A stretch of 35,948 nucleotides of DNA from Bacillota bacterium (GTDB taxonomy: Bacteria > Bacillota > DTU065): positions 1-35,948 of the forward strand of contig JAHDNZ010000070.1 of NCBI GenBank assembly GCA_018435125.1, read 5' to 3'. Each line of letters begins with the position of its first letter. The stretch's first letter is position 1. Under the pieces are notes generated by a model, which had not been told where the DNA came from, searched no databases, and saw nothing but the letters and a program-made list of their open reading frames with translations. Both the position numbers and the translations under genes were made by a program. Below are positions 19,948-35,530 of the stretch, in pieces.

Positions 19948-21060
19948 TTAGATAATCCGTTCTTCAGACTCACGGTCGAAGAGATGGACTTTTTTCATAT
20001 CAAAAGCAACTTCAATCTCGTCGCCTTCTAATGCTTCTGAATAGGCATCAACACGAGCAATAAATAGTTTGTCATCCTTGGCAAGGTAGAGGTGAATTTC
20101 AGATCCCATTGGCTCTAAAACTTCAACCTCAGCCTTAAACCTGGCATCAGAGGACATGTTGGGGCTTATAGCCACATCTTTAATATCTTCTGGACGAACA
20201 CCCAGAATAATTTCCTGATCAATATACTTGTCGAGATTTTCTATTTTCGCTGCTCTTTCCTTTGGCAGCTTAACCTTGAAAATCTCTGACTTCAGCCAGT
20301 ATTCGCCGCCTTCATGCAAGAGTACACAATCATCAAAGAAGTTCATGGCAGGGCTGCCGATAAAGCCGGCGACAAATACGTTATTAGGCAAATCGTAGAT
20401 CTCCAGGGGTTTGCCAACTTGCTGAATAAGTCCATCGCGCATAACTACAATGCGATCACCCATGGTCATAGCCTCTGTCTGGTCATGGGTAACATAGATA
20501 GTAGTTGTTTGCATACGCACATGGAGTTTACCGAGCTCAGATCTCATCTGGACACGAAGTTTGGCATCGAGGTTGGAAAGAGGTTCATCCATTAAAAAGA
20601 CCTTGGGTTCACGGACAATGGCACGTCCAAGCGCCACACGCTGTCTCTGACCACCAGAGAGCTGTTTGGGCTTACGATCCAGTAACTGCTCGATGTCAAG
20701 CATGAAAGCAGCTTGCTTAACACGTTTTTCGATATCTTCTTTAGGGAATTTACGTAGTTTTAATCCAAATGCCATGTTGTTGTAGACATTCATGTGGGGA
20801 TAAAGAGCATAATTTTGGAATACCATGGCAATGTCTCTGTCTTTAGGAGGAAGATCGGTAACATCTTTATCATCGATAATAATATTACCAGATGTAACTT
20901 CCTCTAGACCGGCAATCATTCTCAAGGTAGTGGATTTCCCGCAACCTGAGGGGCCTACAAGTACTACAAACTCCTTATCCTGGACAACCAGGTTAGCGTC
21001 GTTTACAGCAATGATGCCACCAAATTTCTTAGTAACATCCTCCAATACAACGTTGGCCAC
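19948..21060 (-). CDS. MsmX/UgpC-type ABC transporter ATP-binding subunit
   Basis: This 370-residue cytosolic ATPase drives carbohydrate ABC importers. It shows Walker A GPSGCGKST (about 35-43), Q-loop QNYALYPHM, signature LSGGQRQRVALGRAI, Walker B VFLMDEPLSNLDAKLR and H-loop THDQTEAMTMG. The C-terminal third is the MalK-type regulatory TOBE/OB region (LGVRPEDI and VEVLEPMGSE). The start is GTG 21060 with GGAGGAGAAT upstream. It stands alone, with no permease or binding-protein genes adjacent. In Firmicutes such orphan ATPases (MsmX) serve several sugar importers at once, and that is the likely role here. Confidence 0.93.
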   Translation of the reverse strand: MANVVLEDVTKKFGGIIAVNDANLVVQDKEFVVLVGPSGCGKSTTLRMIAGLEEVTSGNIIIDDKDVTDLPPKDRDIAMVFQNYALYPHMNVYNNMAFGLKLRKFPKEDIEKRVKQAAFMLDIEQLLDRKPKQLSGGQRQRVALGRAIVREPKVFLMDEPLSNLDAKLRVQMRSELGKLHVRMQTTTIYVTHDQTEAMTMGDRIVVMRDGLIQQVGKPLEIYDLPNNVFVAGFIGSPAMNFFDDCVLLHEGGEYWLKSEIFKVKLPKERAAKIENLDKYIDQEIILGVRPEDIKDVAISPNMSSDARFKAEVEVLEPMGSEIHLYLAKDDKLFIARVDAYSEALEGDEIEVAFDMKKVHLFDRESEERII

Positions 21061-21450
21061 TATATTCTCCTCCTCATAGTCAGTTCATAAATAACAAAAT
21101 AATTCTAGGGAATCTTAAAAACCCAGAAAGTACCCCTATTAAAGGTCTTTTATGCCAGACCTAGGGCTTAAAGGCGGGTGTTTATCTTTCCAGGGGACAA
21201 AAGACTCCATCTTCCCTTAACTTTTATTCAACGAGTAGAGACGTTATCCTGCATTGTTACTGGAGTTTTTATAAAAAGACGTCCCTAAACCGCAGTTAAG
21301 TTTTTCCACTTTACTTGTTATTGTTAGTAACTGAATGGTTTTAGTCTTTCTTGAGAAATCTTTCGACTTTATAAATAGGATCTCCTTTTTTTATTCTTCG
21401 ATTAAGTTAGCCAACTTTTATATGAGCCAAAACCATGGGACAGTCCTAAT
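21061..21450 (-). other. Long leader region of msmX
   Basis: These 390 bases hold no convincing gene. The region is too long for a simple promoter and ends in the msmX ribosome site, so a structured leader is possible. I could not match a known riboswitch. A short frame after AAAAAAAGGAG near 21380 lacks a start codon. Confidence 0.35.
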
Positions 21451-26132: not shown

Positions 26133-26155
26133 AAGGCGGAGTTTTTTTCCGCCTT
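26133..26155 (-). terminator. Terminator of the GH4 gene
   Basis: AAGGCGG (26133-26139) pairs with CCGCCTT (26149-26155). On the - strand it is followed by eight T. It overlaps the stop codon region of the GH4 gene. Confidence 0.8.
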
Positions 26156-27377
26156 AAAGCCAGCTTATTTGATTAATCCGTTTAATTTCCTGAAGCACGG
26201 CTTCCGCTTTATCCACCTCTCTTATCAGAGGATGAGATAAGAGTCCTTGTCTAAAGATCCTCTTAGAACGCTTGGCTATGCCGTCTACAATTAGTCTTTC
26301 GCTAGAGGAAACCGAAACAATGAGCCCTCTTATAACCTCCGGCATTTTTCCCTGCTCGATTCTTGTTATCTCCCCTTTTTCAATAACTACCGGAAGCTCA
26401 GCGACACTGTCTGGGCTGAGATCTGCTAAAGCACCTTGGTTTTTAGTAACCACAATGGCTTTAGTTTGCCCCCTGGTTGCTTTAAGAAAGGGCACAACTA
26501 CATCTTTATACCAGGGAACCGCTCTTTCTTTAAGAGCCTCGGGTTTTTCACCTTCAGATTTTTTATATTCAGCCTGTAGCTTAGCTTCGTTTTTATATAA
26601 CACTTCTCCACGTGTAGAAGATGCTTTCGCTTTATTATAAACGGCTGCAGTGTAGTAGTAGTAGCGAAGATACGCTACCGGCAAAAGGCCTAGAGTCTCT
26701 ATAAGAAGTGGATCTAGTCCAAGCTTTGGAGCAAGCTCTACAATATTTACATCTCTACCTTGATAGTTAAGTTCCCCTAAAAAAGATAGGTGATTGAGTC
26801 CATAATATTTGAAATTGATCTTGGGCCAAATAGCCGAAAGATCCTCATCTTTCCCGGTTAAAGCCTTTACTACTCCTTTAATTAAGGAGGTCGGTAAATC
26901 ACAAAAGCCTATGGCCTGAACCCCTAAGTAACGGTTAAAATAATCGATTACCATATTATTGGGATTTGTTAGAGCCAAAACTTTGGCTTTGGGAGCAACT
27001 AGTTTTAAGATCTGAGCAAATTCCTCCAGGTAAGGTAGTGTTCTTACCGCAAGAGAAGCTCCCCCGGGAATTATAGTTTCTTCACCAATTAACCCTAGTT
27101 CTAGGGGAAAACGTTCGTCCTCAGCTCTTTTTTGCATACCACCGATTCTAGCTTGTTGTAAAACATAGTCAGCTCCATCTAGAGCCTCTTTCAGATTCGT
27201 GGTAGCCAACACAGTTATTTTTTCACCGGCTATATTACCACATACTCTGGCTACATCCTTAAGTTTTTCTTCTGTCCTACCGTTTAATACCACTTCTACA
27301 TTAAGATCACTTGCATTTAATGCCTCTATTAGATGTGGTGTATAGTAACTACTACCTCCGATAACTGCTAATTTCAT
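26154..27377 (-). CDS. Glycoside hydrolase family 4 enzyme (6-phospho-glycosidase type)
   Basis: This 407-residue GH4 enzyme uses NAD+ and a divalent metal to cleave (phospho)glycosides through an oxidation-elimination mechanism. The N-terminal Rossmann fold starts KLAVIGGSSYYTPHLIEAL. Family blocks seen are GADYVLQQARIGGM, LTNPNNMVIDYF, GFCDLP with the metal-binding Cys, and YYGLNHLSFLGEL with the metal-binding His. ATG 27377 is favoured because GGGGTGA is 6 nt upstream; GTG 27386 is the alternative. Substrate (6-P-beta-glucoside or other) cannot be read. No PTS genes are nearby, so an unphosphorylated or ABC-imported sugar is possible. Confidence 0.88.
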   Translation of the reverse strand: MKLAVIGGSSYYTPHLIEALNASDLNVEVVLNGRTEEKLKDVARVCGNIAGEKITVLATTNLKEALDGADYVLQQARIGGMQKRAEDERFPLELGLIGEETIIPGGASLAVRTLPYLEEFAQILKLVAPKAKVLALTNPNNMVIDYFNRYLGVQAIGFCDLPTSLIKGVVKALTGKDEDLSAIWPKINFKYYGLNHLSFLGELNYQGRDVNIVELAPKLGLDPLLIETLGLLPVAYLRYYYYTAAVYNKAKASSTRGEVLYKNEAKLQAEYKKSEGEKPEALKERAVPWYKDVVVPFLKATRGQTKAIVVTKNQGALADLSPDSVAELPVVIEKGEITRIEQGKMPEVIRGLIVSVSSSERLIVDGIAKRSKRIFRQGLLSHPLIREVDKAEAVLQEIKRINQISWL

Positions 27378-27417
27378 AGACTTCACCCCGCTTTAGAACA
27401 ATTTTCTCTCTCAAAGA

Positions 27418-27462
27418 CTAAAAACCTGCCCGAGTTGCCCGCTACCTCTGGCAGGTTTTTAG
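27418..27462. repeat. 13-bp inverted repeat between divergent GH4 and galU genes
   Basis: CTAAAAACCTGCC (27418-27430) and GGCAGGTTTTTAG (27450-27462) are exact complements with a 19-nt loop. It sits between two divergent starts (27377 and 27513), where a terminator is not expected. It may be an operator, an attenuator in the galU leader, or a chance terminator-like remnant. Confidence 0.6.
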
Positions 27463-29107: not shown

Positions 29108-29947
29108 TTAATTACTTTTTGTATTTATAGCATTCCTAACAATAATAGCTTTGCCTTGCTGTTCAATGCAACCTACCGGACAAACCTCGACACACTTCCC
29201 ACAGTTTGTGCACTTAGAGTAATCTACTCCGGCCAGATTATTTAGAACATGAATGGCATCTGAAGGGCAAGCTTTCTCACAGCGCATACAACCAATACAA
29301 CCGACAGAACACCACTTACGTACCTGGGGTCCTTTTTCAATTGAACGGCAACGCACATGGACTCCCATAGAAACCGGTCTAAGTTCAATAATATCTTTCG
29401 GACAGGCTTCTACACATTTATTACAACCGGTGCATTTCTTTTCATCTACTTCCGGAAGGCCCTCTTCGCTTAATTTAAGAGCTCCAAAAAGACAGGCTTT
29501 AACGCAGTTGCCCAATCTCACACAGCCATAAACACAACCTTTAGGTCCTCCCGAAGCACCGACGGCAGCCCGGCAATCCTGCAGTCCGTCATAGAGCGAA
29601 CGGAGTTTAGCGTGTTCATAATCGCCACCGCACATTACCTGGGCGACTTTACGTTCCTCCATTTCATCGGCAGCTACCCCCATGATCTGGGCAATTCTAT
29701 CGGTAACGGCTCCTCCACCGGGAATACAACCATTGGTTGGCATTTCCCCTCTAGATACGGCTTCGGCAAAAGCTCTGCAACCAGCAGCCCCACAGGCACC
29801 ACAGTTTACTTTGGGCAATACCGCTTCGATCTCGTCGATATGAGGATCACTTTCAACAGCAAACTTCCTTGAAGCAAGGGCCAGACCAAGACCAAAGACT
29901 AGTCCGAGAGAGCCCATGCAAATCAAGGAGAGAATAAGCGGACTCAA
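29108..29947 (-). CDS. rnfB: RnfB, iron-sulfur subunit of the Rnf complex
   Basis: This 279-residue peripheral membrane subunit accepts electrons from reduced ferredoxin. An N-terminal helix (about 3-26) anchors it. Cys49, Cys52, Cys57 and Cys74 bind the first 4Fe-4S cluster (CGACGAAGC, then C). A Cys-rich middle (GCVYGCVRLGNCVKAC) and further ferredoxin-like motifs CTGCNKCVEACP, CSVGCIGCMRCEKACP and CTNCGKCVEVCP follow, matching the multi-cluster clostridial type. The start is probably TTG 29947 behind GAGGAGATG. It is the last gene of rnfCDGEAB, 14 nt after rnfA. Confidence 0.96.
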   Translation of the reverse strand: MSPLILSLICMGSLGLVFGLGLALASRKFAVESDPHIDEIEAVLPKVNCGACGAAGCRAFAEAVSRGEMPTNGCIPGGGAVTDRIAQIMGVAADEMEERKVAQVMCGGDYEHAKLRSLYDGLQDCRAAVGASGGPKGCVYGCVRLGNCVKACLFGALKLSEEGLPEVDEKKCTGCNKCVEACPKDIIELRPVSMGVHVRCRSIEKGPQVRKWCSVGCIGCMRCEKACPSDAIHVLNNLAGVDYSKCTNCGKCVEVCPVGCIEQQGKAIIVRNAINTKSN

Positions 29948-29961
29948 AATATCATCTCCTC

Positions 29962-30543
29962 TCAGCTAGGCAAAATTCCCGTAAAACCCATAAAAGCCAT
30001 CGCCATAATACCTGCGGTAATAAGGGCAATTGCCGGGCCACGGAAAGCTTCCGGAATCAAGTCTTCTTTCATATCTTCTCTTATGCCGGCCATTAGGGCC
30101 AAAGCTAAACTAAATCCGACACCGCCACCGAGTGCAAAAACTACGGTCTCAATAAAAGAGTAGTTTTCACGCACAGCCATAACGGCCAGACCTAAAACAG
30201 CACAATTAGTAGTGATAAGAGGTAGGAAAATACCTAAAGCCCGATGCAAGGCCGGAGTATTTTTCTTCATAACCATCTCAACAAACTGCACTAAAGTGGC
30301 AATGGTTAAAATGAACACAATGGTCTGCATATACTCAAGCTCAAAGGGGATAAGAATGTAGTGGTTAAGAAGCCAGGTTACAATACCGGACATAACCATT
30401 ACAAACGTGGTAGCAACACCCATACCTAATGAGGTTTTGATTTCCTTGGATACTCCCAAAAATGGGCAGTTGCCAAGAAACCTAGCTAAAACAAAGTTGT
30501 TTACCACCGCCGAACTGATAAAAAGCAGCAAGAGTTTTGGCAT
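29962..30543 (-). CDS. rnfA: RnfA, membrane subunit of the Rnf complex
   Basis: This 193-residue membrane protein has six predicted helices and is the partner of RnfE in the ion-conducting core. Typical blocks are NNFVLARFLGNCPFLGVSKE near the start, with the conserved Cys that helps hold an intramembrane Fe-S cluster, and LPLITTNCAVLGLAVM with the second conserved Cys. The start ATG follows GGGGGT. It sits 15 nt after rnfE in the operon. Confidence 0.96.
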   Translation of the reverse strand: MPKLLLLFISSAVVNNFVLARFLGNCPFLGVSKEIKTSLGMGVATTFVMVMSGIVTWLLNHYILIPFELEYMQTIVFILTIATLVQFVEMVMKKNTPALHRALGIFLPLITTNCAVLGLAVMAVRENYSFIETVVFALGGGVGFSLALALMAGIREDMKEDLIPEAFRGPAIALITAGIMAMAFMGFTGILPS

Positions 30544-30558
30544 TCTTTTTTACCCCCT

Positions 30559-31206
30559 TCAAGCTGCCAGAGTGCGGTCAGAGATCTTTTTTAGCTCTCT
30601 TTTCCGCTTGGCATTGATATTGAGGAAATTGACCAAAGCCACGAGAAAACCAAGAATAATAAATGCTCCCGGAGCTTGGCCGAAGATTTGGATAGGATGG
30701 AAGCCCTCACCAAAAACTGTATAGCCAAAGATGGCACCCTTGGCCAATAGCTCTCTGATAGCAGATAACAGTACTAAGCCCCAGGTAAAACCGACTCCCA
30801 TACCAAGACCATCTAGGGCTGAAGCCACAACACCGTTTCTGGAAGCAAAGGCTTCGGCACGGCCAAGAACGATACAGTTAACCACAATCAGAGGAATAAA
30901 GATGCCAAGCAGCCTATAGATATCCGGAAAATAGGCCTTCAAAGCTAAATCCACAATGGTAACAAAAGTCGCTACCACAATGATATAGCTTGGAAGTCTA
31001 ACCTCATCTGGAATCACCTTCCGAAGAAGTGAGATCAGAATGTTAGACATAACAATAACAAAAGTAGTGGCAATGCCCATCGCCAGTCCATTCATAGCGG
31101 TGGTAGAAACTGCCAGGGTAGGACAAAGACCGATTAACATCACAAAGTTGGGGTGCTCTTCCCATAAGCCTTTTATAAACTCATGCCCTAGATTCCTTTT
31201 TGCCAT
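30559..31206 (-). CDS. rnfE: RnfE, membrane subunit of the Rnf complex
   Basis: This 215-residue membrane protein is homologous to RnfA, with six helices in inverted topology. Landmarks are NFVMLIGLCPTLAVSTTAMN and IPLIVVNCIVLGRAEAFASR, each with the conserved Cys. I use ATG 31206, one base after the rnfG stop and 9 nt after AGGAGGG; a GTG at 31215 would overlap rnfG. With RnfA and RnfD it forms the membrane core that couples electron flow from ferredoxin to NAD+ with Na+ or H+ export. Confidence 0.95.
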   Translation of the reverse strand: MAKRNLGHEFIKGLWEEHPNFVMLIGLCPTLAVSTTAMNGLAMGIATTFVIVMSNILISLLRKVIPDEVRLPSYIIVVATFVTIVDLALKAYFPDIYRLLGIFIPLIVVNCIVLGRAEAFASRNGVVASALDGLGMGVGFTWGLVLLSAIRELLAKGAIFGYTVFGEGFHPIQIFGQAPGAFIILGFLVALVNFLNINAKRKRELKKISDRTLAA

Positions 31207-31207
31207 C

Positions 31208-32242
31208 TCAAGCACCCTCCTTTACTGTACCGTCAATTAAAAACTGTTCCAGATTCTTTAGGGCCTTTTGCAGCGCACTAGCTACTCCTTTAGAAGAAAT
31301 GGTAGCTCCGGCAACACCCTGAATGTCTTTACCTACTTCATAGGGGTTACCTACTGCTTTATCGGTAAACTGCGAGGTAAATTTCTCTCCGGTAATTAAC
31401 GATCCCAGCCCTGCGGTTTCAGACTGTTGCAACACGTCTATACCAAGCACTCTCTCTAAAGTGCCCTCTAAAGCCAACATGAGGACGATATCTCCACCGT
31501 AACCCTTAGCTTTAGAGATAACAGCGACCCCCACCAGTTTTCCCCCTGAAATGGCCTGATAGATCTCAAAGGCAGGAGTTTTTTCCGCAGCTGGTTCGTC
31601 ACTAGTACCAAGAGCACTCTCTTCCGGCTTGGAGACATCGACCTCGGTTGCAAATAGTGAGTCTAGATCATAATCGTCAGAGCTTTCAGAAGTGTCGTTA
31701 GTAGTTTTAGTATTTACATCGACATCAGCCGCAAAAAGCGCCTCTAAGTCATAATCATCAGTGTCAGGTTCTTCCTCTGGACCTACACTAACATCATCAA
31801 CTTCAATCCCAAAATCAGCCCAGTTAAACTCTTCTACCTCAGGCTCAGTTACGGTTTCTTCTTCGGGAGTGGTAATCTCTTCTTCGTCTAAGCCCTCCAA
31901 GCCCCAGGCAGACCAGTCAATATCAACCTCCGGTTCGTCTTTTGACTCAGCTTTAGCTACACTTTCCAGTGGTTTAGCGTCTGGATCCCATTTCCATTCA
32001 GCGTTTAGACCGTTTTCTTGTCTTACACTTTCTACCAGACTTTTAAGCTCTTTATAATTAGTAACTTTAGTAATCTGTGAACCCTCAGGCAAGAGTTTTT
32101 CCGCCACAATCCTCATCTTGTCGCTTTCTCTAGCCTTAATTATGGGTGAAAACTTCTCATTGGCCAGGGTCAAAATCGCACCTGAAACCAAAGAAATAGC
32201 CATTAAAACTATAACCATCCGAGCAATACTATTTTTTTTCAA
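31208..32242 (-). CDS. rnfG: RnfG, FMN-binding subunit with an acidic repeat insertion
   Basis: A 344-residue subunit, much longer than usual RnfG (about 180-220). The N-terminal helix (8-27) anchors it. The FMN domain (about 224-330) carries ETAGLGS and VAGATISSKG, where the Thr of GAT (about 314) binds FMN covalently. Between the helix and that domain, residues about 95-222 are a low-complexity acidic insert with four degenerate units: DIDWSAWGLEGLDEEE, FNWADFGIEVDD, DDYDLEALFAADVDV and DDYDLDSLFATEVDV. The insert lies outside the membrane. The start is TTG 32242, whose GGAGGTGA site overlaps the rnfD stop. Electron transfer should be normal; the insert's role is unknown. Confidence 0.93.
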   Translation of the reverse strand: MKKNSIARMVIVLMAISLVSGAILTLANEKFSPIIKARESDKMRIVAEKLLPEGSQITKVTNYKELKSLVESVRQENGLNAEWKWDPDAKPLESVAKAESKDEPEVDIDWSAWGLEGLDEEEITTPEEETVTEPEVEEFNWADFGIEVDDVSVGPEEEPDTDDYDLEALFAADVDVNTKTTNDTSESSDDYDLDSLFATEVDVSKPEESALGTSDEPAAEKTPAFEIYQAISGGKLVGVAVISKAKGYGGDIVLMLALEGTLERVLGIDVLQQSETAGLGSLITGEKFTSQFTDKAVGNPYEVGKDIQGVAGATISSKGVASALQKALKNLEQFLIDGTVKEGA

Positions 32243-32250
32243 TTAAAAGT

Positions 32251-33156
32251 TCACCTCCCGTAAATACGGGGTCTAGTGGCACGGTTAATAAGTGGGACGG
32301 TTGCATTCATAAGCAAGATAGAATAGCTGACACCCTCAGGCATTCCGGCACCATGACGAATCAGCATCACCAAAACCCCAATACCGATGCCAAAGATCCA
32401 CCTTCCCTTTGGTGTTACAGGAGAAGTCACCATGTCGGTGGCCATAAAAAGTGCCCCTAGCATGAGACCTCCGGCAAACAGTTGAGCCAGTGGATTAAGA
32501 CCCATTATTAAGGAGATAACTATCACGGTACCTAAAACACCGCTGACAATCCGGTAATCGATGTAACCTTTTATCAAAAGATACAACCCGCCGATTAATA
32601 AGGCAAAAGCCGAAGTCTCTCCGATACAGCCGGGTACAGATCCCCAAAAGAGATTGCTAAGAGGTATCTTGGTTGTAGCCGCAAGAGGCGTAGCCGAGGC
32701 AATGGCATCATAACCGGCAGGAGACAACCAATTGGTCATTATTGCCGGAAAAGAGGCTGTTAAAAAAACTCTCCCTACTAAAGCTGGGTTAAAGGGATTA
32801 GCCCCTAAGCCTCCATATACTTGCTTACCAATGATAATAGCCACTGCGCTTCCCAAAGCAGCTATCCAAAGGGGTACTGTAGGCGGCAGATTCAAAGCCA
32901 ACAGCATTCCAGTTACAATAGCTGAACCATCGGAGACTGTAAGAGGTATGCCTCTAAGTCTTTGCCAGATTACTTCTGTAGCTAAAGCTGCGCCAACTGA
33001 GGTTAAAACCACAGCCAGTGCCCGCCAGCCAAAGAAGAATACCCCCGCAGCTATGGCCGGAATTAAAGCTATAGCTACCGAGTACATAATTCTTTTTACC
33101 GTATCTTGTGCCCTAATATAAGGCGAAGAAGATACAATGAGCAGATCTTCAACCAT
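32251..33156 (-). CDS. rnfD: RnfD, membrane FMN subunit of the Rnf complex
   Basis: This 301-residue polytopic membrane protein is related to NqrB. Visible blocks are SDGSAIVTGMLLALNLPP, GLGANPFNPALVGRVFL (about 117-132) and the flavinylation motif SATPL (about 154-158), where Thr156 should carry FMN. ATG 33156 has GGAGGGATATGA upstream. It is placed 12 nt after rnfC and before rnfG. Confidence 0.96.
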   Translation of the reverse strand: MVEDLLIVSSSPYIRAQDTVKRIMYSVAIALIPAIAAGVFFFGWRALAVVLTSVGAALATEVIWQRLRGIPLTVSDGSAIVTGMLLALNLPPTVPLWIAALGSAVAIIIGKQVYGGLGANPFNPALVGRVFLTASFPAIMTNWLSPAGYDAIASATPLAATTKIPLSNLFWGSVPGCIGETSAFALLIGGLYLLIKGYIDYRIVSGVLGTVIVISLIMGLNPLAQLFAGGLMLGALFMATDMVTSPVTPKGRWIFGIGIGVLVMLIRHGAGMPEGVSYSILLMNATVPLINRATRPRIYGR

Positions 33157-33168
33157 TCATATCCCTCC

Positions 33169-34524
33169 TTAGGCTGTAGCTACAGGTGTAGATCTTTTAT
33201 GATTCTCAGCGTCACGTCTTTTTTGCATAGCAATTTCCATCTTGCCTACCTTAATCCACTGGACCAGATGACGTTTGGATGGACAGACATAAGAGCAGCA
33301 GCCACATTCGATGCAATCTAAAAGACCCATGGACTTAGCTTTGTCTAACCCACCTTTACTGACATACCTTTCAAGCATATTGGGCATTAAATGCATCGGA
33401 CAGTGGTCTACGCATCTAGCACACCTGATACAAGGATCCGGCTCTCCAATTACAGGACTCTCTTTTTCACTTAATATTAAAATACCCGAGGTCCCTTTTA
33501 CGACCGGTTCGTCTGTCTCATGAATAGCAATCCCCATCATAGGACCGCCGTAGATAATGCGGCCGATCTTTTCTTTGGTACCACCGACAACCTCAAGTAG
33601 TTTGTCCATGGTTGTTCCAATTGGAACAATGAAGTTACCTGGGTTATTAACAATGCTACCTGTAACCGTAACAGCTCTTTTAACAAGCGGCATACCGGTT
33701 TTAATAGCTTCGGCTATGGCAACAGCGGTACCCACATTGATAACTACAACACCCACCTCATAAGGCAATGTCCCCGAGGGTACTTCTCTATTTAGAACAG
33801 CTTTAATCAGCTGTTTTTCGCCACCTTGAGGGTATTTAGTCTTTAGCAGTACCACTTCGCAGTCTGAGCCACACCTGCTAGTTAAAAACTCTAAACAGTC
33901 TTTTTTGTTATCTTCAATACAGATCTTAATATGATCTGCGCCACAAGCTTTGGCTGCCGCTTTCATACCATAAAACAAATCGTCTGTCCGCTCCAGCAAA
34001 GTTCTGTGATCACAGCTTAGATACGGCTCACACTCAGCTGCGTTTATAAGCAGATATTCCACATCTTTCCCTTCTGGAACACAAAGCTTTACATGTGTCG
34101 GGAAAGTCGCACCTCCCAAACCTACAATGCCTGAATCGCGAACAATATCTACAATCTCTCTTGGAGTTAATTCCTCTAAGGGTTTATGAGGTTTAATGCT
34201 GGGATCTAGTTGATAGTTACCATCATTATTAATAAATATTGCCGGTCCTCTCAGACCGCTTGGAAGAAGTGTAGAGTCGATTTTTTGTACTGTACCCGAA
34301 ACACTGCTGTGAACCGCAGCACCGATATAAGCATCGGTATCAGCGATCTTTTGTCCAACCAGAACCTGGTCGCCTTTTTTTACAAGTGGTTTGGCCTCCG
34401 CTCCGATATGCATTTTTAGCGGAATAATAACCACATCCGAGGCTTTAACTTCCACAAACGACTTGCTACAGGTAAGTTCCTTGTGGTAGTTTGGATGGAC
34501 ACCTCCCTTAAACGACTTTAACAC
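33169..34524 (-). CDS. rnfC: RnfC, NADH-binding subunit of the Rnf complex
   Basis: This 451-residue cytosolic subunit exchanges electrons with NAD+/NADH. The Gly-rich GLGGATFPTHVKL (about 136-148) is the nucleotide/FMN site, with NAAECEPYLSCDH next to it. Two 4Fe-4S motifs lie near the C-terminus: CIRCARCVDHCP (365-376) and CIECGCCSYVCP (404-415). The start is GTG 34524 with GGAGGTGATTTAG upstream. It is the first gene of the operon, and its leader (34525-34665) contains an attenuator-like structure. Confidence 0.96.
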   Translation of the reverse strand: MLKSFKGGVHPNYHKELTCSKSFVEVKASDVVIIPLKMHIGAEAKPLVKKGDQVLVGQKIADTDAYIGAAVHSSVSGTVQKIDSTLLPSGLRGPAIFINNDGNYQLDPSIKPHKPLEELTPREIVDIVRDSGIVGLGGATFPTHVKLCVPEGKDVEYLLINAAECEPYLSCDHRTLLERTDDLFYGMKAAAKACGADHIKICIEDNKKDCLEFLTSRCGSDCEVVLLKTKYPQGGEKQLIKAVLNREVPSGTLPYEVGVVVINVGTAVAIAEAIKTGMPLVKRAVTVTGSIVNNPGNFIVPIGTTMDKLLEVVGGTKEKIGRIIYGGPMMGIAIHETDEPVVKGTSGILILSEKESPVIGEPDPCIRCARCVDHCPMHLMPNMLERYVSKGGLDKAKSMGLLDCIECGCCSYVCPSKRHLVQWIKVGKMEIAMQKRRDAENHKRSTPVATA

Positions 34525-34557
34525 CTAAATCACCTCCAAAAATCTATTAAAAACACT

Positions 34558-34600
34558 GAAAAAATGGTGGCCACAGCCACCTGCTATATCGTGGTTTACT
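34558..34600 (-). promoter_or_regulatory. Attenuator: terminator with a competing hairpin in the rnf leader
   Basis: On the - strand GGTGGC (34576-34581) pairs with GCCACC (34566-34571) around TGTG, followed by ATTTTTT, an intrinsic terminator about 35 nt before rnfC. An upstream CCAC (about 34590-34593) can instead pair with the GTGG of the terminator's first arm, so the two folds exclude each other. A further hairpin AACCTTC/GAAGGTT precedes it (about 34607-34630). The sensor is not recognised. Confidence 0.55.
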
Positions 34601-34670
34601 TATTTAACCTTCTACAACCCCGAAGGTTATCCTGCCTGCTTAATCTATAGATCACTTCTCCCATTTAAAA

Positions 34671-34699
34671 AAATTACACCAGAGTCTCCTATCTGTCAA
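34671..34699 (-). promoter_or_regulatory. rnf operon promoter
   Basis: On the - strand a perfect TTGACA (34694-34699) and TAATTT (34671-34676) are spaced by 17 nt. Transcription would start near 34664, giving a leader of about 140 nt before rnfC. Confidence 0.7.
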
Positions 34700-34876
34700 A
34701 TGTCTCTTTTAACTGAAAAACAAATATACTTCCCTCAGTATATTCGCTAAACCTAGCCGTTTATGAAAGTGACCAATAGCTAGTTTAGCTAAAATTATTA
34801 CCCCAAAGGCTTCAAGTATTAACCCTGTGGCGTTTTCTTAGCCTAATCTGCTAGAGAGTCAGAATGGCTAAGGCTT
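34700..34876. other. Region between the Crp/Fnr gene and the rnf promoter
   Basis: No gene was found. A CTTAGCC/GGCTAAG pairing around 34838-34872, followed by CTTTTATTT on the + strand, is the only clear hairpin. An AATATACT/AGTATATT repeat lies at 34722-34744. Confidence 0.4.
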
Positions 34877-35530
34877 TTATTTAAGCAAGGTAATCGAGTC
34901 TTTATCAAATAAAATAAGCCCATCTTTTTTCATTTTTGCCAATTCGCGTGATAAGGAAGTGCGTTGCACACCGATTTTTTCAGCTAAAGCCTTTTTGGTT
35001 ATCTCCAGCATAATATGTTTGGAATTTTGTTTCTTGCTTTCATATTTAAGGAAACTTAAGACACTTTCCCGAATCGTTTTGTTAACATAGTGCTTAATCT
35101 TATCTCCGAGTAAAAAGGTATGATCGGCAATAAATTCCAGATAGGTACGCAAAAAGAGAGGGTTGGTGCAAAGAAGATCAAATAACAGCTCTTTGCTAAT
35201 TTCCAGTAGCTTAGAGGGTGAATTTGAGGTTATAGTCAGTGGATAATAAGGATTTTTGGAAAACAGAAGGTTCCCACCTAAGATATCATCGTTATAAAAT
35301 TCAGCGATGCTTAGTAAATTCCCCGCCTCATCAATCCGCTCTACAACCACTTTACCCTCTAAAATGATCTCTAATTTTGAGCATTGTTCTCCCTCAAAAT
35401 GAATGATGCTTTTTTTCTTAAAACTCACAATCCTAAACGTTCCCCGGCGAAGAAAACTTTCTAAATCGTCTTTGGGCAAAGGTTTTAACAGGGTCAGGTT
35501 TTTAACTAAACTCAAAGCTTTTTCATCCAT
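34877..35530 (-). CDS. Crp/Fnr-family transcriptional regulator
   Basis: A 217-residue protein. Residues about 15-115 are the cyclic-nucleotide-binding-like jelly roll (EIILEGKVVVERIDEAGNLL, then FYNDDILGGNLLFS). A long dimer helix follows, then a winged helix-turn-helix at about 165-215 with recognition helix VQRTSLSRELAKMKKDGL. Fnr has E-x2-S-R in this helix; here the Glu is replaced by Arg. There is no four-Cys set for an Fnr-type 4Fe-4S cluster and no clear cAMP-binding Arg-Ser pair, so the effector is unknown. ATG 35530 follows AAAGGGG. It is divergent from a polyferredoxin gene and next to rnf, so a redox-linked role is likely. Confidence 0.9.
   Translation of the reverse strand: MDEKALSLVKNLTLLKPLPKDDLESFLRRGTFRIVSFKKKSIIHFEGEQCSKLEIILEGKVVVERIDEAGNLLSIAEFYNDDILGGNLLFSKNPYYPLTITSNSPSKLLEISKELLFDLLCTNPLFLRTYLEFIADHTFLLGDKIKHYVNKTIRESVLSFLKYESKKQNSKHIMLEITKKALAEKIGVQRTSLSRELAKMKKDGLILFDKDSITLLK

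Follow-up and report, generated by a model that had tools for sequence, protein, structure and literature searches.

Tandem SigA- and SigH-type promoter boxes and a conserved terminator in the leader of a Bacillota rnf operon

In the Bacillota genome analysed here, the rnf operon appears to be driven by tandem promoters of the SigA and SigH types and to carry, before rnfC, a conserved intrinsic terminator that transcripts from both promoters would have to read through, a reading to which we assign a probability of roughly 0.65. It draws on the conservation and order of these modules in related genomes, on the exact SigH spacing of the second box, on a genome that encodes SigH and has such boxes at spoVG and spo0A, and on the finding that the box turns up again before rnfC in other Bacillota families. 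Judged from sequence, a second promoter, of the SigH type, accounts for the conserved core of the leader better than a riboswitch does. Coordinates refer to the window, the whole 35,948-nt stretch of DNA that was analysed, which belongs to a draft genome of 91 contigs (G000); G001 and G003 denote the other rnf-bearing genomes of the family.

Organization and conservation of the rnf leader

The rnfCDGEAB operon, supported by Pfam matches, occupies positions 29108-34524 on the minus strand and opens with rnfC (33169..34524, minus strand), whose GTG start codon at 34524 is preceded by a ribosome-binding site, GGAGGTGA, read from the window sequence at 34530..34537 (minus strand). The protein encoded at the RnfG position (31208-32242, minus strand) is long at 344 amino acids, with an acidic insert before an FMN-binding domain that covers residues 247-329 only. 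A crp/fnr gene lies upstream of rnfC on the same strand and ends at 34877.

The distal module of the leader, P1 (34671..34699, minus strand), is a SigA-type promoter with TTGACA at 34699-34694, a 17-nt spacer and TAATTT at 34676-34671, and its transcripts are predicted to start at about 34665-34662. Across the three genomes it takes the form CATTTGACA-N17-TA..T, and an invariant TGGTGTA (34681-34675 in the window) overlaps its -10 region. The sequence-only reading had called this a strong promoter: the promoter-like arrangement holds and is kept in relatives, but the adjective is overstated because the -10 element is weak (three of six positions in the window, four of six in G001) despite a -35 element that is perfect in all three genomes. 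A promoter scan of the window did not list P1; in sampled DNA of the same genome, pairs of TTGAC-like and TA...T elements upstream of genes number 13 at a 17-nt gap, against 0-4 at other gaps. A 10-base palindrome, ATCTATAGAT, is found between P1 and the second promoter box (34650-34641, minus strand) and is not kept in G003.

Closest to the gene is an intrinsic terminator, GGTGGC-TGTG-GCCACC-A-TTTTTT (34559..34581, minus strand), placed between the promoters and rnfC, with a T-run that ends 34 nt before the GTG at 34524. Both the coordinates and the distance of about 35 nt given by the sequence-only reading are correct, and the element recurs in G001 and G003: all three leaders have a G+C-rich hairpin followed by a T-run, as an intrinsic terminator should, and its pairs form with a probability of 0.9 or more in each. 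In G001 the stem and the loop of the hairpin are both longer, and a U-A pair is replaced by U-G, as would be expected of a structure formed in RNA more than of a DNA operator. A GTG-started frame, VAVATIFSV..., runs through the terminator (34580-34530, minus strand) in G000 and G003, which differ there chiefly at third positions; the frame lacks a ribosome-binding site and is broken or absent in G001.

Among the five family genomes examined, three carry rnf, with RnfC identities to the window of 81% in G003 and 77% in G001. Comparison of their leaders, which the sequence-only reading had proposed as a check, reveals one module order common to all three, namely P1, then GCAGGA-N13/14-(T/A)GTAGAA, then the intrinsic terminator, then rnfC. 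The gene upstream is crp/fnr in the window and a different one at each of the G003 and G001 loci (L002 and L003); as the block accompanies rnfC whatever the upstream neighbour, its hairpin is not just the tail of the preceding gene. A scan of genome contigs for RnfC gave a best identity of about 51% and no more leaders of this type, and apart from the rnf leaders the family genomes yielded only short leader matches, the best of which (23 bases, in G001) was judged a chance match inside a coding gene, NfeD/ClpP-like by eye.

SigH-type boxes in the leader, the genome and the phylum

The second module, P2 (34610..34635, minus strand; contained in the window segment AAGCAGGCAGGATAACCTTCGGGGTTGTAGAAGG), has the form of a SigH-type promoter, with GCAGGA at 34635-34630 (AGGA at 34633-34630), 17 nt after the AGGA and then GAA at 34612-34610, and a start predicted at about 34603-34600. 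It lies inside what the sequence-only reading had taken for leader and was missed there. The gap between AGGA and GAA is 17 nt in G000 and G003 and 18 nt in G001, in agreement with SigH spacing; the -10 element reads GAAG, GAAG and GAAA in G000, G003 and G001, respectively, so that its fourth base departs from the GAAT consensus.

The composite GCAGG...GTAGAA is over-represented in the genome, with 34 occurrences against 5 for the reversed pattern, and many of the matches are coding. In 273 kb of the genome, GCAGG and GAA stand co-oriented upstream of genes at a gap of 18 in 11 cases and at a gap of 19 in 4, with 0-2 cases at any other gap, and no pair at gaps of 18 or 19 occurs elsewhere between genes; as the sample was drawn partly from regions that match GCAGG..GTAGAA, it is enriched in boxes, and the spacing profile rather than the frequency counts as evidence. 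Two half-sites at a fixed spacing that always face a gene argue for a promoter or another DNA site rather than an RNA domain. We also considered the composite as an RNA motif of a new kind and set this aside in favour of the SigH reading, given the many coding matches and the single spacing of the intergenic ones.

The genome encodes SigH (Spo0H), the sigma factor of transition phase and sporulation (TIGR02859, 378.6 bits against a cut-off of 294.8; G000:C6:19431-20024), as well as Spo0A. All five genomes of the family also encode a second SigH-like sigma factor (G000:C44:17722-18309 and its equivalents in G001-G004) that scores 236 bits, below the SigH cut-off, and either of the two could be the reader of the boxes. 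Known SigH targets offer a comparison: spoVG is one in B. subtilis, and in the family a SigH-type box precedes spoVG in G000, in G003 and, with a 16-nt gap, in G004, and precedes spo0A in G000, G001 and G002, lying 63-72 nt before the matched gene start in most of these genomes. The G000 examples are AAGCAGGACAAATAAGACAAGTGTTGAAATAA before spoVG and AGAAGGTATAATAAATTTTTTAGAGAATGA before spo0A, the latter with AGGT instead of AGGA. No box was seen at spoVG of G001 or at second spo0A-like genes, and spo0A of G003 is cut by a contig end. Within the window itself, box-like sites with SigH spacing also occur at 21227-21252 (minus strand; GCAGGATAACGTCTCTACTCGTTGAAT), before an ABC-transporter ATPase gene (19948-21060), and at 27404-27429 (minus strand; GCAGGTTTTTAGTCTTTGAGAGAGAA), before a glycosidase-like gene (26154-27386).

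The association with rnf extends to the phylum. In the 300 nt that precede rnfC at each of 112 other Bacillota loci, AGGA and GAAT are separated by 17 nt at 17 loci and by 18 nt at 9, and by any other gap at 0-2; at these two gaps the GAAT form is absent from the antisense strand of the same 112 loci and, outside Bacillota, from the sense strand at 62 rnfC loci. Counted by family, with one locus each and using simple patterns and gene starts taken from homology matches, AGGA-N17/18-GAA precedes rnfC in 17 of 51 other Bacillota families (300 shuffles gave a mean of 2.9 and a maximum of 8) and the GAAT form in 12 of 51 (shuffle 0.8, maximum 5). At the same loci the box is found before 11 of 45 rnfC genes and none of 31 other genes (Fisher p 0.002, with related loci not thinned), and upstream of groES, used as a control, the GAAT form occurs in 0 of 30 cases and the GAA form in 3 of 30, which is background level. 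In one family (f49; loci L009, L242, L243, L252, L259 and L264), the box lies about 185-210 nt before rnfC, against 80-120 nt in most other families, which suggests a longer leader there. A phylum-wide pattern that includes a ribosome-binding site mixed coding matches with likely boxes and was kept as a lead only.

The terminator has a narrower distribution. Any terminator within 140 nt of rnfC was found at only 3 of the 112 other Bacillota loci, none of them behind a SigH-type box, and among 14 sampled box-gene pairs of the G000 genome rnf is the only one with a terminator after the box. By these sequence comparisons, the association of the SigH-type box with rnf reaches beyond the window's family, whereas the terminator does not.

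Read-through, folding of the leader and alternative explanations

In the arrangement we favour, P1, as a promoter of the housekeeping (SigA) type, would transcribe toward rnfC, and P2, about 60 nt downstream and of the SigH type, would allow rnf to be raised when SigH is active, which by analogy with known SigH regulons may be in transition phase or under energy limitation. Provided that both promoters fire and the terminator works, as their sequences predict, the P1 and P2 transcripts would meet it after about 105 and 45 nt, respectively, and only those that read through, by a partial or regulated process, would express rnfCDGEAB; the terminator would thus serve either as a constant brake or as a regulated attenuator. 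Against this tandem model stand the position of the terminator some 25 nt after the predicted P2 start, which would waste most SigH transcripts unless it were leaky or regulated, the GAAG or GAAA in place of GAAT, the weak -10 element of P1, and the fact that this leader type is known from three leaders only. No antitermination factor was found in our analysis of the leader.

A regulated attenuator, in which a protein or small molecule acting on the leader RNA would switch between the terminator and an antiterminator, is compatible with a promoter at P2 and in our estimate possible if rather unlikely. The layout of promoter, terminator and gene that underlay the attenuator claim of the sequence-only reading holds in all three genomes with differing upstream genes, and a terminator between conserved promoters and the gene is otherwise rare at rnfC. 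The alternative pairing it described is also present in the window, where an ACCAC (34591..34595, minus strand) could act as an antiterminator arm by pairing with GTGG (34580-34577) in the left arm of the terminator (CCAC 34594-34591 with this GTGG), and in G003 (ACCAC with GTGGT); G001 has no such arm. A terminator-free fold costs 0.5 kcal/mol in the window, where the near equality of the two folds explains why a switch had been seen, but 6.6 kcal/mol in G003 and 7.3 kcal/mol in G001, so that the switch is not conserved and no mutually exclusive antiterminator is common to the three leaders. Nor was the claim of about 100 nt of structured RNA borne out by folding: the whole stretch has a z score of +0.53, with 140 of 200 shuffles folding at least as well, the three leaders without their terminators fold no better than chance (z of 0.28, 0.48 and -0.31 with single-base shuffles), and even the three transcripts that include the terminators reach z scores of only -0.79, -1.25 and -1.10. 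There is likewise no Rfam match to lend such a switch a sensor. A protein-controlled or simply leaky attenuator is possible.

The terminator may instead be passive, cutting rnf output by a constant factor or releasing a short transcript of some 45-105 nt while read-through goes unregulated, an explanation we consider about as likely as the regulated attenuator. It would account for a terminator that is stable in all three leaders, which have no conserved antiterminator and, when read by eye, no conserved open reading frame ahead of it; conservation of a purely wasteful feature over three genera would, on the other hand, be odd.

It is improbable that the hairpin ends the upstream crp/fnr transcript and that the true rnf promoter lies downstream of it. 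The crp/fnr gene is on the same strand and a terminator scan of the window lists none directly 3' of it, yet the order of P1, P2 and terminator is kept beside rnfC in G003 and G001 behind other genes, the 34 nt from the T-run to the start codon leave no room for a promoter of either type, SigA or SigH, together with a start, and both predicted starts fall upstream of the terminator.

Least credible is the Na+ or redox riboswitch that the sequence-only reading had put forward: the pump itself transports Na+ or H+, Na+ riboswitches occur at V-type ATPase genes of some clostridia and the Na+-I (DUF1646) class governs sodium-energetics genes in some Bacillota (PMC9337991), but neither the window nor the relatives' loci match any Rfam family at its cut-off, the Na+ class included (the only match at E up to 10 being a T-box with 11.9 bits and E 2.7 against a cut-off of 93), the leader has no structure beyond chance, and PMC9337991 says nothing of rnf in its text.

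Precedents and biological meaning

Leader-terminator attenuation and SigH promoters are both of already known kinds. As in known attenuators (trp/TRAP, riboswitches and ribosome-mediated systems), the rnf leader has a terminator between promoter and first gene that is kept in relatives; unlike them, it has no aptamer, no conserved leader reading frame and no antiterminator present in all three leaders. For the rnf cluster of Clostridium ljungdahlii, too, a start of transcription ahead of rnfC and a putative terminator in the rseC-rnfC interval have been reported, but there the terminator was read as the end of rseC (PMC9124969), whereas in the window's family it adjoins rnfC behind a different gene in each of the three genomes and follows both predicted promoters.

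The closest parallel for P2 comes from Sporomusa sphaeroides KIAC, in which AGGA and GAAT, 17-18 nt apart, precede 322 mapped starts, some of them at energy genes, and in which spo0A is named as a well-known SigH target; rnf is absent from the SigH targets in the text of that report (PMC12456013). The rnf leaders resemble these promoters in their -35 AGGA, -10 GAA and gap of 17 or 18 nt ahead of an energy-metabolism operon, in a genome that has SigH and Spo0A and bears the box also at spoVG and spo0A, and differ from them in a fourth -10 base that is G or A rather than T and in the intrinsic terminator that follows the box. Our literature search on rnf attenuation, on SigH and rnf, and on Na+ riboswitches and rnf returned nothing direct: no paper was found on SigH control of rnf or on an attenuator of that operon.

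For many anaerobes Rnf is a main complex of energy conservation, and little is known of what switches it on. That about one in three of the sampled Bacillota families have the box ahead of rnfC, with a spacing and specificity beyond those of the controls, suggests a testable rule, namely that SigH activity helps to set Rnf expression, and would extend the recent Sporomusa report in which SigH reaches carbon and energy genes. The case also illustrates that a second promoter inside a leader can pass for structured RNA. We put forward tentatively, at a little under even odds, that SigH is a recurrent regulator of Rnf across Bacillota, to which the window's lineage would have added a terminator behind tandem SigA- and SigH-type promoters as a read-through checkpoint, and that energy conservation may in this way be tied to the transition-phase programme.
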